NCBI GenBank assembly: GCA_018970785.1
Contig: JAGWVR010000007.1
Span: forward strand, 1 to 64,000
Direction: 5' to 3'
Source: Planctomycetota bacterium
GTDB lineage: Bacteria > Planctomycetota > Planctomycetia > Pirellulales > UBA1268
Length of the DNA stretch: 64,000 bases
A program made the position numbers and the translations under genes. Positions 4,019 to 57,044 of the stretch are shown here, piece after piece. The first letter of the stretch is position 1. The number at the start of each line of letters is the position of its first letter. The notes under the pieces are model-generated. The model ran no database searches, was not told the DNA's origin, and saw only the letters and a program-made list of their open reading frames with translations.

Positions 4019-4179
4019 ATCTCCCTGCCTGCGATCTGCCCGCATCGGGGCGCCGGCGGCCCCGTCTCCGACCCTAACACAGCCGTCCCGCTTCTGGTAC
4101 AACGCCCCGCTGTGCCGGTCTGGCAGGAACATCCCTCCCGCCCCGTTCGCCCCGCACTGTCCGGCCCGAATTGCGAGCC

Positions 4180-5011
4180 ATGAAGCCGCACTGGTCCTCC
4201 GTCGCGATCGTCGGCGTGGGACTGATCGGAGGATCGGTCGGCCAGGCCCTGCTCGGCCGCCGTCTGGCCGGGCGCGTGATCGGGATCGGGCGCGACCCGG
4301 CATCGCTGGCGGAAGCGAAGCGCTGCGGCGCGGTGACCGAGACGACGACCGACTTGGCGGCCGTCGCCGGCGCCGATTTCGTGCTCGTCGCCACCGGGGT
4401 CGCGGCGATCCCGGCGCTGCTCGAGCGGATCGACGGCGCCGTCCGACCCGGGACGGCGATCACCGATGCCGGCAGCACCAAGGGCCGGATCGTCGCCGGC
4501 TGGGAACGGCACCGCCGCCGGCGCCGCGGCCGGTTCGTCGGCGGCCATCCGCTGGCGGGAAGCCACCGGCGCGGGCCGGCCGCCGCCGACGCCGACCTGT
4601 TCACGGGACGGGTCGCCGTGGTGACCCCCGCGCCAGCCACGCCGGCCGACGACGTCGAGGCGGTGGCGGAATTCTGGTCGGCGCTCGGCGCGACGGTGTA
4701 CATGATGCCGCCGCGCGAACACGACCGGATCCTCGCCGCGACCAGCCACGCGCCGCATGCCATCGCGGCGGCCGTGGCAGCGGCCACCCCGGCGGCGGCG
4801 CGACGGTTCACGGCCGGGGGATGGCGCGACACGACGCGGATCGCCGCCGGCGACCCGGCACTGTGGGCCGACATCCTCCTCGACAACGCCGCCGAGGTGC
4901 AGCGCGCGCTCGGGCGCGTACTCCGCCGGGCGGCGCGGCTGCAGGAAGCGCTCGAGCGCCGCGACCGCCGCGCCGTCGAGACCCTGCTCACCCGGGCGAA
5001 GGAGGCCCGCG

Positions 5012-52935: not shown

Positions 52936-53754
52936 TCACGCGACGACGATACCGCCGGCGGATCCGCCGCGGCGGGCGAGGATGCGGAGGTAGGGGGGCA
53001 GATAGCGCGCCCGGTGGCCGAACGCGCCCGGCGGTGCCGCGGCATCGGCATGGACGGGCTCGTGGACATCCTCGATGACGAACCCGGCCCGGCAGATGCC
53101 GCCGAGCAGGGCGTCGAGGGAATGGGCGAACTCGAGCGTGCCCGGTTCGCGGAGACGCGACGGCTCGGCGGCGGGCAGTGCGGCGGGCGAATCGAGCGGC
53201 TGGGTGAGTTCGTAATGCCCGCCGCTGCCGGGGCGCAGCCCCGCCTGCAGGCTCGCCGGGGACTTGTGCTGGCTGACGTAGCGCCCCCCCGCTCGCGTCA
53301 CCCGGGCAATCGCCGTGAACAGCCGCGTCACGTCGGGGAGATAGCAGGTGCTCACCGGGTGGACCACCAGATCGAAGCGCCCGGCGCGGAACATGCCCAG
53401 GTCGTCCATCGACGTCGCCACCAGATCGAGCGCGACGCGCCGTTCCCGCGCGACCTGGCGGTCGAGTTCGAGCATCGCCGGCGACAGATCGACGACCGTC
53501 ACCCGGGCGCCGGCCGCCGCGTACAGGGGACCGTGTTTACCCCCTCCCGCCGCCAGGCACAGGACCTCGAGACCGGAGAGCGATTCCGGCAGCCAGCGGC
53601 GGCCGCCGGCGCCGCTGGCCAGCCACGCCGCCGGGTCGGCGAACGCCTCGTCGACCGCGGGCCTGGCCAATGCCGCGCCGCCGATCGCAAGCCGATCCCA
53701 CGCCCGCGCGTTGTGGTCGAGGACAGTCTCGCGCGACGGGGGGTGGCTCGTCAT
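52936..53754 (-). CDS. SAM-dependent methyltransferase
   Basis: The protein has 272 residues and a class I Rossmann methyltransferase. SAM motif I is near 65-72 (V-L-C-L-A-A-G-G-G-K-H), with acidic V-V-D-L-S-P near 90 and D-L-V-V-H-P-V-S near 128. It lacks membrane segments. The acceptor is unknown; it is not a recognisable cobalamin-pathway methyltransferase such as CobA or CbiF. Its start overlaps the stop of the PEP-CTERM gene (ATGA at 53751-53754), so it is translated with that gene and may lie under the cobalamin riboswitch upstream of the operon. Confidence 0.85.
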   Translation of the reverse strand: MTSHPPSRETVLDHNARAWDRLAIGGAALARPAVDEAFADPAAWLASGAGGRRWLPESLSGLEVLCLAAGGGKHGPLYAAAGARVTVVDLSPAMLELDRQVARERRVALDLVATSMDDLGMFRAGRFDLVVHPVSTCYLPDVTRLFTAIARVTRAGGRYVSQHKSPASLQAGLRPGSGGHYELTQPLDSPAALPAAEPSRLREPGTLEFAHSLDALLGGICRAGFVIEDVHEPVHADAAAPPGAFGHRARYLPPYLRILARRGGSAGGIVVA

Positions 53755-54461
53755 CCTCGTTTCCGCCGCCGGGCCGCCACGGCCCAGGCGGCGATGGCAC
53801 CACCGCCGGCCAAGGCGATCGCCGACGGCTCAGGGACGGGGGACACCGGCTGCGACAGGCTCAGCGTGGCGGCGCTGCCGTCGGCCTGGACGAAGGCGTA
53901 CCAGCCCCCCGGAACCAGCGTCGTGGCGGAGATGCCCGCCGCCGACAGGTCGAACGGTGCCGTTGTCCAGACGCCACCCGAGTCGTCGCGCTGGTACTGC
54001 GCCGGGTACTCCCCGGTGTCGGGATCGTAGGGACCGATGGTCCGCACCCCGGGCGACCATCCGGCTCCGAGGCCGGTCTGGTCGTAGGCGATCTCGTTGA
54101 CGAAGTAACCCCAGTCGGCGCCGAAGTAGCTGACGTCGATCGCCAGCCGCGGGTCGGAACCTGCTACGGCGGCCGGCCCGCCGACGATGTGGCCGGCGAG
54201 GGCGAACAGAAGCGACTCGAACGTCGCGACGCCGTCCCAGCGATACCCCCAGGCGACCGCTGCCGGCTCGAGGGTCGTGCCGCCGGCGACGGTCGGGAAC
54301 TGGAGCACGAGCGCGGCCTCGTGGGCGCCGGTGCCGGCCCAGAAACCGATGTCGGAGAAATCGTCGACGGTGACGGAGGCCGCCCGCAGCGGGCCCGCCA
54401 CGTTGCCGAGCACGATCGCCAGCACGCCGACGCCGATCACCCCGCGAACCGATGCTGTCAT
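53751..54461 (-). CDS. PEP-CTERM surface protein
   Basis: The protein has 236 residues. A signal peptide (about 1-29) is followed by a soluble domain of ~175 residues, rich in aromatic and Gly residues (V-A-W-G-Y-R-W-D-G, Y-F-G-A-D-W-G-Y-F-V-N-E-I-A-Y-D). The C-terminal PEP-CTERM signal follows: V-P-E-P-S near 212, a hydrophobic helix and R-R-R-K-R-G. Exosortase would cleave at the PEP site and release or reposition the protein at the surface. I do not recognise the main domain. The start at 54461 has GGGAGGAAG upstream. It is gene 2 of the operon led by the DUF1559 gene and its stop overlaps the methyltransferase. Confidence 0.88.
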   Translation of the reverse strand: MTASVRGVIGVGVLAIVLGNVAGPLRAASVTVDDFSDIGFWAGTGAHEAALVLQFPTVAGGTTLEPAAVAWGYRWDGVATFESLLFALAGHIVGGPAAVAGSDPRLAIDVSYFGADWGYFVNEIAYDQTGLGAGWSPGVRTIGPYDPDTGEYPAQYQRDDSGGVWTTAPFDLSAAGISATTLVPGGWYAFVQADGSAATLSLSQPVSPVPEPSAIALAGGGAIAAWAVAARRRKRG

Positions 54462-54519
54462 CGCTTCCTCCCTGTCGTGCGCCACGCTCCCGCGCCGGTG
54501 ACGGACCGGCCTTGCCCCT

Positions 54520-55383
54520 TCAATCCCCGGCCGCGCGGGTCAGCAGGGCGAGCAGCGCCGTCTGCTCGATCGATTCGGCGACGAACTCCACATGACCGTC
54601 GCCGAACACCAGCCCTGCCGCGCCCGGATGGTCGCTCCAGATCTCGTTGTTCTGGCTGGCGTTGATCGGGTTGTTCCACCACTGGTCGAAGATGTTCTGC
54701 CCGTTGGCCCACTCCGACTGGAGCGTTGCGTCACGCCCGGTGCATTCCGCGATCACCACCGTGTGCGACAGGCCGTCGGCGACGTCGGCGGCGGCGGTGG
54801 AGCGCTCGTACTGCATCATCCCGGCATGTTCCGGCAACGACCGGGCCACCGGATAGGCGACACCGTACATCCCGCCGTAGTCGGTGTAGGCGAGCCCGTC
54901 GCCCGGATCCCAGCGGCCATTGCCGTTGCGGTCCCCGGTGGTCGGACCGGTGCGCCGCGTGCGCGCGGTGCTCGGGCAGAGGAACAACGGCACCACCGTC
55001 GCCGCCGCGCGGAGGTTCTCGGCGGCGCGGTAGGAACGACCGACGTCGAATGCCGCGGCGGCGCCCGGTTCCTCGACATAGGGGAGGATGAACGCGTTCC
55101 ACGCGATCTGCTTCCGCGGTGCCTTCGTCGAGCATTCGAGACAGCCGAGCGGAAACCGCCGCCGGGATGCCTCGTGGACCGAGACGGCCTGGCCGAGCCC
55201 GCGGAGATTGTTGGCACAGGCCGTCCGCCGCGCCGCCTCACGCGCGCCCTGCACCGCCGGCAAGAGCAGGCCGACGAGGAGGCCGACGATCGCGACGACG
55301 ACGAGGACCTCGACGAGCGTCATCCCGGCGAGTCTCGGGCGCGGGGCGGCCCGTCGCCACCCGCGCGGCACGAACGGATCCAT
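54520..55383 (-). CDS. DUF1559 prepilin-like protein, first gene after cobalamin riboswitch
   Basis: The protein has 287 residues. A 20-residue basic leader ends Gly20 and is followed by Met21-T-L-V-Glu25 and a ~20-residue hydrophobic helix, the class III prepilin peptidase signal. A globular domain follows with the conserved R-R-x-x-C-x-N-N-L-R-x-L-G-Q-A. A D-R-N-G-N-G-R-W-D-P-G-D stretch looks like a calcium-binding loop. The C-terminal H-P-G-A-A-G-L-V-F-G-D-G-H-V-E-F is the DUF1559 hallmark. Its untranslated leader (55384 upward) carries the cobalamin riboswitch. A PEP-CTERM gene follows after 58 bases. This pairing with B12 control is unusual. Confidence 0.9.
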   Translation of the reverse strand: MDPFVPRGWRRAAPRPRLAGMTLVEVLVVVAIVGLLVGLLLPAVQGAREAARRTACANNLRGLGQAVSVHEASRRRFPLGCLECSTKAPRKQIAWNAFILPYVEEPGAAAAFDVGRSYRAAENLRAAATVVPLFLCPSTARTRRTGPTTGDRNGNGRWDPGDGLAYTDYGGMYGVAYPVARSLPEHAGMMQYERSTAAADVADGLSHTVVIAECTGRDATLQSEWANGQNIFDQWWNNPINASQNNEIWSDHPGAAGLVFGDGHVEFVAESIEQTALLALLTRAAGD

Positions 55384-55502: not shown

Positions 55503-55540
55503 GTGCCGGCCGTCCCGCCCTCGCGGTCCGTCCGACCCAT

Positions 55541-55775
55541 GATGCCGGGGAGGTCTTCTGACTCTCGGGCTCGGCTGCCGTCGGCCTTCTCGCCTCAGCG
55601 GTCGTTCGGGGTTTTCACCCCGGACCACGGCGGCAATGGATCGATGACGGCATCCTCTCTTCGCCGGGCCGAACCCGGCGAACATCGCCCGATCACAGCG
55701 GCGGGGCCGTCCCGGAGTCGCACCGGTGTTCCCTGTTTGCCCACCGACGCAGCGCGTTGGCAGGCCACCCGGATC
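55541..55775 (-). promoter_or_regulatory. Cobalamin (adenosylcobalamin-class) riboswitch
   Basis: On the minus strand: a P1 strand GATCCGGG near 55775 pairs with CCCGG-C-ATC at 55541-55550. The core GGGAA, CCGGTGCGA, TCCGG, CCCCGCCGCTGTGA lies at 55733-55693. A hairpin CGGGG-TGAAA-CCCCG lies further on. The closing B12 box AGTCAGAAGACCTCCC is at 55563-55548, close to the consensus. Binding of a cobalamin would normally repress the downstream genes: DUF1559, PEP-CTERM and methyltransferase. I recognise none of these as B12 genes. Confidence 0.9.
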
Positions 55776-55784
55776 GTTGGGGCG

Positions 55785-55812
55785 AGTCTACGGGCGATGG
55801 CGACCCTGTCAA
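55785..55812 (-). promoter_or_regulatory. Promoter of the riboswitch operon
   Basis: TTGACA (perfect -35) and TAGACT (-10) are 16 bases apart on the minus strand. Transcription would begin near 55778, within a few bases of the riboswitch P1 stem, as expected. The part of 55384-56231 upstream of this, 55813-56231, has no other gene or clear promoter; it precedes the Cys-rich gene on the plus strand. Confidence 0.75.
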
Positions 55813-56231: not shown

Positions 56232-57044
56232 ATGAAGCGTATGTTTTTCCTCGGTGCGCTGGTCCTCAGCGTCACCGTTTGTAGTCAGTCCTATGGCTTC
56301 GAGATCCTCAACCGGATGCTCGGCCACAAGGGCTGCACGTCGTGCACCGAGCCCGCGTGCGACGCCGGCAACGGCTGTGCGGACGCCTGCGAGCCGACCT
56401 GCGCCGGTGGCGGCGGGTGCTTCGGTGGTCGGGCCGGGTGCCTCGGTGGCAAGGGTTGCGCGGAGCCGAGCTGCGACGGTGGCAACGGTTGCTGCGAGCC
56501 GGCGTGCGACGCCGGTGCGGGCAACGGCTGCTGCGAGCCGAGCTGCGGAGCGGTGGGTGGTTGCGGCAAGAAGAAGCACAACCTGTTCGGCGGCCTGAAG
56601 GGGCTGTTCGACGGGCTGAAGCGGAAGCACCACGGCTGCACGAGCAGCTGCAGTGAGCCTGCCTGCGGTGCCGGGAATGGCTGTGCGGAGCCCGCTTGCG
56701 GGGCCGGCAACGGCTGTGCCGAGCCCGCTTGCGGTGCCGGCAACGGCTGCTGCGAGCCGAGCTGCGGTGCGGTGGTCTCGAAGAAGAAGTGCCGCGGCAC
56801 GCCGATCCTCGACCTCCTCCGGTCGGTCCACTCGGCGAAGAAGCGTCACCACGGCTGCACGAGCTGCTGCGACTCCGACCCGGGCTGCGGTGCCGAGCCC
56901 GACTGTGCGGGTAACAACGGCTGCTGCGAGCCGGCCTGCGGTGCGGTGAGCCAGATGGTTCCGGCGACCCCGACGCCCGACGCGTCGGCCGCGAAGAAGA
57001 CCGGCAAGGTCGTCGCGGTCAGCCGGACCGTCTCGGCGAAGTGA
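56232..57044 (+). CDS. Secreted cysteine-rich EPxC-repeat protein
   Basis: The protein has 270 residues with a signal peptide (about 1-22). The mature part has 36 cysteines by my count and eleven EPxC units (mostly G-C-[AC]-E-P-x-C). Two basic Lys/His/Arg-rich patches (K-R-K-H-H-G-C) break the repeat. The C-terminal ~35 residues are Cys-free, Pro/Ala/Lys-rich. No domain is recognised. Cys clusters of this kind suit metal binding or disulfide cross-linked walls; planctomycete envelopes are known for cysteine-rich proteins, but a link is inference. An AAGGAGA lies ~10 bases before the ATG. A strong terminator follows. Confidence 0.85.
   Translation: MKRMFFLGALVLSVTVCSQSYGFEILNRMLGHKGCTSCTEPACDAGNGCADACEPTCAGGGGCFGGRAGCLGGKGCAEPSCDGGNGCCEPACDAGAGNGCCEPSCGAVGGCGKKKHNLFGGLKGLFDGLKRKHHGCTSSCSEPACGAGNGCAEPACGAGNGCAEPACGAGNGCCEPSCGAVVSKKKCRGTPILDLLRSVHSAKKRHHGCTSCCDSDPGCGAEPDCAGNNGCCEPACGAVSQMVPATPTPDASAAKKTGKVVAVSRTVSAK
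56672..56760 (+). repeat. 33-bp near-exact tandem repeat in the Cys-rich gene
   Basis: About three consecutive 33-bp units encode EPACGAGNGCA, an 11-residue repeat; successive copies differ at only a few bases. This suggests recent unit duplication or conversion. The other EPxC units in the gene are more diverged. Confidence 0.75.

Follow-up and report, generated by a model that had tools for sequence, protein, structure and literature searches.

We propose that the PEP-CTERM protein encoded on the minus strand at 53751..54461 of the window, by which we mean the whole 64,000-nucleotide stretch of DNA analysed here, is quite likely anchored at the cell surface to capture corrinoids under the control of a riboswitch, with a core like the beta domain of transcobalamin, and we infer that it binds a corrinoid, is exported and hands its ligand over. 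The assignment would say which fold and function are likely for a family that is present in several phyla and unnamed in Pfam and NCBIfam. The B12 grip of animal type would then also occur in bacterial surface proteins that are under riboswitch control and whose anchors, PEP-CTERM or T9SS, differ by lineage. One of the many planctomycete DUF1559 pseudopilins gains a predicted role as well, and it becomes testable how an essential cofactor is acquired by B12-scavenging planctomycetes, some of them apparently without TonB receptors.

The operon and its riboswitch

The gene is the second of an operon that runs from a promoter-like site and a cobalamin riboswitch through a DUF1559 pseudopilin and the PEP-CTERM protein to a methyltransferase. 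The features are as follows.

55785..55812, minus strand: sigma-70-like promoter TTGACA-16-TAGACT, 10/12 consensus positions, at the riboswitch start
55531..55787, minus strand: cobalamin riboswitch RF00174, 45.6 bits against a cut-off of 31.5
54520..55383, minus strand: DUF1559 / prepilin-type (H-X9-DG) pseudopilin (PF07596 1.2e-41, PF07963, TIGR04294)
53751..54461, minus strand: PEP-CTERM protein with a predicted transcobalamin beta-domain-like core, 236 aa, operon gene 2
53847..54380, minus strand: core domain, protein residues 28-205 (approximate boundaries), the segment given to AlphaFold
53751..53840, minus strand: PEP-CTERM sorting segment through the protein end, PF07589 E 6.2e-5
52936..53754, minus strand: class I SAM-dependent methyltransferase (PF08241 2.6e-15), in an ATGA overlap with the PEP-CTERM gene

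The first-pass annotation had described a PEP-CTERM protein at 53751-54461, and the 236-aa open reading frame on the minus strand is as described. A GGAGG-type ribosome site accompanies its ATG at 54461, and its stop ends at 53751; an in-frame GTG upstream at 54485 is an alternative start. The protein has a hydrophobic segment at its N-terminus and shows the C-terminal motif, hydrophobic stretch and basic tail of PEP-CTERM substrates. PF07589 passes the Pfam cut-off (23.4 against 20.7 bits, residues 216-241 of the 244-aa reading P0001), as does TIGR02595 its own (17.4 against 16). The B12 riboswitch that the same annotation had placed upstream is real as well, though the DUF1559 gene, 58 bases from the PEP-CTERM gene, separates the two. 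It is the sole cobalamin riboswitch detected by a genome-wide search of the assembly, which is 69% complete. The promoter-like site ahead of it, a consensus match alone, was seen once where 0.1 were expected in shuffles.

Close homologues of the methyltransferase lie downstream in two other riboswitch loci, L085 (9262-10260; E 2.5e-91) and L094 (7257-8099; E 1.2e-87). Its identity as CpaM, the corrinoid-protein-associated methyltransferase, was rejected because the likeness is generic (30 bits against a cut-off of 180). A divergent gene upstream of the operon, at 56232-57044 on the plus strand, encodes a secreted-looking protein with strongly Cys-rich repeats such as CAEPACGAGNGC.

The core domain and its homologues

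The domain between the N-terminal signal and the PEP-CTERM segment had been called unassignable, and by sequence it remains so: residues ~28-205 have no match in Pfam, NCBIfam or the PDB, even at E = 10, and single-protein searches (Pfam, NCBIfam, PDB and a first scan of genome contigs) returned the PEP-CTERM tail or nothing. Our literature search, with most subscription journals outside its reach, retrieved no paper on the family.

Searching 392 planctomycete genomes with the window protein yielded seven true domain homologues. A core profile built from seven sequences matched in 20 other genomes, one of the matches being false (L060, whose frame is methyltransferase-like). When 84,980 species genomes were scanned with a tighter alignment, 68 loci came up, all 68 positive with the domain HMM. 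We discarded L002-L005, L011, L013 and L014, whose match is confined to the PEP-CTERM tail, and L015, which is partial and in an implausible frame. What the plasmid searches matched was either the sorting tail or the propeller, and they turned up no copy of the domain. The hosts are Planctomycetota, Verrucomicrobiota, Kiritimatiellia, Bacteroidota (Epilithonimonas, Soonwooa, Muribaculaceae and rumen Bacteroidales), one member of the Fimbriimonadaceae and one deltaproteobacterial MAG. The surface-sorting signal varies with them: the planctomycete and verrucomicrobial homologues have PEP-CTERM, those of Bacteroidota a T9SS tail. At L101 and L103-L128, mostly from rumen and gut Bacteroidales, the domain occurs in very large proteins with up to 5 detected tandem copies, mostly behind cobalamin riboswitches.

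The core domain is more than a chance open reading frame: its conservation extends over several phyla, and W41, G43, G45 and G72 (window protein numbering) are invariant in an alignment of 61 sequences. In the same alignment and numbering W71, R74, D103, G176 and G185 are conserved at ~90% or more. The window protein is itself a divergent member, particularly in its second half, and carries P153 where 58 of the 61 homologues have a conserved W.

Linkage to cobalamin riboswitches

The first-pass annotation had suggested surveying whether homologues also follow B12 riboswitches. We picked the loci for this count by protein similarity alone. RF00174 was found upstream on the same strand in 16/22 loci of a planctomycete set (the window and L039-L059), in 32/35 loci of a genome-wide control set and in 11/12 loci of rumen Bacteroidales. 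Among the remaining planctomycete loci, L054, L055, L057 and L058 have a below-cut-off match to the AdoCbl-type RF01482 directly upstream, and L046 and L059 have neither RF00174 nor a sub-threshold match of the cobalamin clan upstream. Pooling gives 68 loci (22 + 34 + 12, after removal of a duplicate, L093 being L046), a set that differs from the 68 loci of the 84,980-genome scan. A cobalamin riboswitch above the curated threshold lies upstream in 59/68, or 63/68 when sub-threshold cobalamin-clan matches are included; related genomes are among these loci, which thus are not 68 independent events, though they span several phyla. Chance would account for very little of this. Above-cut-off cobalamin riboswitches number 48 in the 132 Mb of the 35 control-set genomes, mostly one per genome, and the chance of one falling within 5 kb upstream is ~0.0009 per locus. 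In many loci the domain gene is the first gene, 170-360 bases behind the riboswitch.

Two other arrangements were seen among these loci. In the deltaproteobacterial MAG (L078) a cobalamin riboswitch at 4139-4364 is followed ~110 bases on by a c-di-GMP-I riboswitch at 4476-4588, both on the same strand upstream of a companion gene (described below). At L097 and L099 (genomes G423 and G425) metH, the riboswitch and the beta domain lie on one strand, with metH up to ~140 bases upstream of the riboswitch.

The domain could be co-regulated with B12 uptake while its ligand is something else, for example a precursor of B12, cobinamide, a polysaccharide or a different metal-tetrapyrrole. In Burroughs et al. 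2007 (PMC1796856) both authors and reviewers do allow for a variety of soluble ligands in the SLBB superfamily. However, the linkage is specific to riboswitches of the cobalamin clan across several phyla, and in Epilithonimonas caeni a BtuG-like propeller is joined to the domain within a btuB-btuG-like locus. That locus comprises a riboswitch, a TonB receptor, a DUF5074 (BtuG-like) protein, a PKD_3-matching protein and the fusion itself, which consists of the core domain, DUF5074 (5e-120) and a T9SS tail. We consider a different ligand very improbable.

Predicted fold

An AlphaFold and Foldseek search had also been proposed, and among the best 50 listed matches it points to the B12 binders transcobalamin and intrinsic factor. 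With an input of 61 sequences, AlphaFold modelled the window core at pLDDT 85.4 and pTM 0.85 and the homologue at L065 at pLDDT 95.4 and pTM 0.90. Each model was compared with 350,542 PDB chains and the best 50 listed matches per search were considered. Those with a Foldseek probability of at least 0.1 were exclusively transcobalamin (human, bovine and rat, including the isolated beta domain in 5no0 and 5np4), intrinsic factor (2pmv, 3kq4) and 3u7z, which we take to be a DUF4430 protein. For the single-domain targets, that is the isolated beta domain and 3u7z, the TM-score by target length is 0.62-0.73. By query length the TM-scores of the search are 0.31-0.50. In the window core model the strands that follow the helix are E62-66, E76-85 and E92-99, where an SLBB-type ligand hairpin would be expected. 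From these models we predict a beta-grasp core that resembles the beta domain at the C-terminus of transcobalamin and intrinsic factor.

With neither model did a match pass E 0.001, the E-values being 0.1 or worse. Because no single Foldseek match is significant, the fold assignment rests on the consistency of the models with each other and with the genomic context. Sequence comparison gives at most suggestive evidence for kinship with DUF4430: hhalign against planctomycete DUF4430 proteins reaches 37% probability (P 3.5e-4), in register, and 1 of 150 column shuffles scores higher. In this weak alignment WSYW is paired with WLYLIN and DGAWDGWSW with GDRVVWQY.

A fortuitous likeness, with the domain an unrelated, beta-rich, adhesin-like PEP-CTERM domain, would fit such E-values and the finding that sequence searches of Pfam and the PDB returned neither transcobalamin nor DUF4430. 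Against this, two separate models share an exclusive match set within the best 50 listed for each out of 350,542 chains, in agreement with the independent riboswitch evidence, and hhalign puts the WxYW and DGxWDGW motifs on equivalent DUF4430 strands. We give a fortuitous likeness hardly any credence.

With riboswitch linkage in 59/68 loci, against a chance of ~0.001 per locus, and a predicted transcobalamin/intrinsic factor fold, the earlier proposal that this gene is the best candidate for a corrinoid-binding surface protein gains support, with physical binding as the presumed step. The combination that would have counted against it, another known function with no riboswitch linkage in the homologues, did not arise.

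Recurrent partner genes

In 33/49 non-Bacteroidota loci a prepilin-type gene lies within 5 kb on the same strand, against 2/49 with one on the opposite strand (sign test 4e-8). In the window and at L049, L084, L085, L087, L094, L095 and L096 a prepilin-type gene sits between the riboswitch and the beta-domain gene, and the prepilin-type proteins of the latter seven loci match the window DUF1559 protein with E 1e-47 to 1e-94. A GC[LVI]xC motif is often present in this DUF1559-like subfamily.

A second partner is a companion family of ~260 residues with no Pfam match, found beside the domain or fused to it in 24/49 non-Bacteroidota loci. The fusions are in L056, L069, L079 and L123, and members include the following.

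L065, 770-1708: companion family member
L078, 4621-5580: companion family member
L085, 7121-7996: companion family member
L073, 4835-5938: companion family member

In Bacteroidota loci the members tested match weakly, and none was detected in the window.

The companion family bears on whether the window protein is a binder at all, since at those 24 loci it could be the real one. The window protein would then be a structural or docking subunit of a B12-regulated surface apparatus, itself without B12 binding. There is a precedent in BtuL of Bacteroides thetaiotaomicron, which is encoded in a B12 locus and bound no cobalamin (PMC12751083), and the loss of the conserved W in the window protein would also fit. 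Several observations speak for a binder instead. The models predict the fold of a B12-binding domain, the domain gene comes first after the riboswitch (at the distance given above) in many loci, the tandem copies in rumen Bacteroidales are what one would expect of a capture module, and the companion family went undetected in the window. We judge a non-binding role to be unlikely.

A proposed model for corrinoid capture

Returning to the reading of the protein as a corrinoid-capture protein, the host would be a B12-scavenging planctomycete. The marker for corrin synthesis, cbiC, was found in 0/31 carrier genomes examined; this absence is consistent with scavenging and does not discriminate, because the gene is rare in planctomycetes generally (present in 14/149, absent in 135/149). 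The methionine synthase gene metH is present in 22/31 carrier genomes, that of the window included. At low intracellular cobalamin the riboswitch (55787-55531) would allow expression of the operon, presumably through relief of repression. The PEP-CTERM signal would then have the product exported and anchored at the cell surface, where the beta-grasp core may grip a cobamide and concentrate it for uptake.

As for the way inward, the TonB plug PF07715 was found in none of four genomes: the window's assembly (G000, 69% complete), G361, G413 and G422. G361 is 97% complete, in one contig, with the operon order of the window. G415 has four such domains. A search for the FecCD inner-membrane permease gave weak matches only. 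Because no TonB plug was found in the window's assembly or in its near-complete relative, the co-transcribed prepilin-type protein becomes a candidate partner for presentation or uptake, speculative as this is. More broadly, planctomycetes, verrucomicrobia and their relatives might share a module of a transcobalamin beta-like binder and a dedicated prepilin that, in lineages like that of the window, brings B12 inward without a TonB-dependent BtuB, for instance in a pilus- or pseudopilus-assisted way; we hold this wider idea to be doubtful and offer it tentatively.

Comparison with known families and systems

At the level of family cut-offs we could reject membership of BtuG, BtuH, DUF4465 and DUF4430. 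The SCO2322 family (NF040672) was rejected as well: it matches 6/21 core-family members weakly (best E 2.7e-4) and the match in two further genomes falls on the YWxYWxxDxxxW...DGWxF stretch, but all stay below the 85-bit cut-off, with the best whole-genome homologues at ~20 bits and no match in the window protein.

BtuJ / DUF4465 and BtuH are surface proteins or lipoproteins that bind B12, as predicted for the core family, and like it they belong to riboswitch loci; DUF4465 (IPR027828) occurs in planctomycetes and verrucomicrobia too (PMC13398666). The core family is unlike both, DUF4465 being an augmented beta-jelly-roll and BtuH2 having its own C-terminal domain; neither DUF4465 nor BtuH gave a sequence match in Pfam or the PDB, and the BtuJ structure is absent among the Foldseek matches listed for both models. 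BtuG of Bacteroides, a DUF5074-type beta-propeller, is likewise a surface protein of riboswitch-controlled B12 loci. Its fold differs from that of the core domain, and the window protein lacks the propeller (no match of PF16819 / DUF5074 in P0001).

The predicted fold is like that of the beta domain of transcobalamin and intrinsic factor, with which the core also shares the B12-linked context and, presumably, the secreted or surface location. In defining the SLBB superfamily, Burroughs et al. 2007 recognised a transcobalamin-like clade, planctomycete proteins already among its members, and proposed B12 scavenging for extracellular members (PMC1796856). The core family differs from DUF4430 and the transcobalamin beta domain in length (~150-180 residues against ~100) and in lacking a significant match to PF14478 (DUF4430), the window protein and 20 homologues having no match at E <= 10. 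Since the sequence evidence for DUF4430 is weak and falls short of the Pfam cut-off, we call the family new and its fold transcobalamin beta-domain-like. No match to the alpha/alpha toroid partner was found in the window protein, where the signal region alone precedes the core; a stand-alone B12-gripping domain is nevertheless plausible, since cyanocobalamin is bound by the human transcobalamin beta domain on its own (PMC5599065). Unlike transcobalamin, the core family is tied to cobalamin riboswitches and to PEP-CTERM or T9SS anchors.
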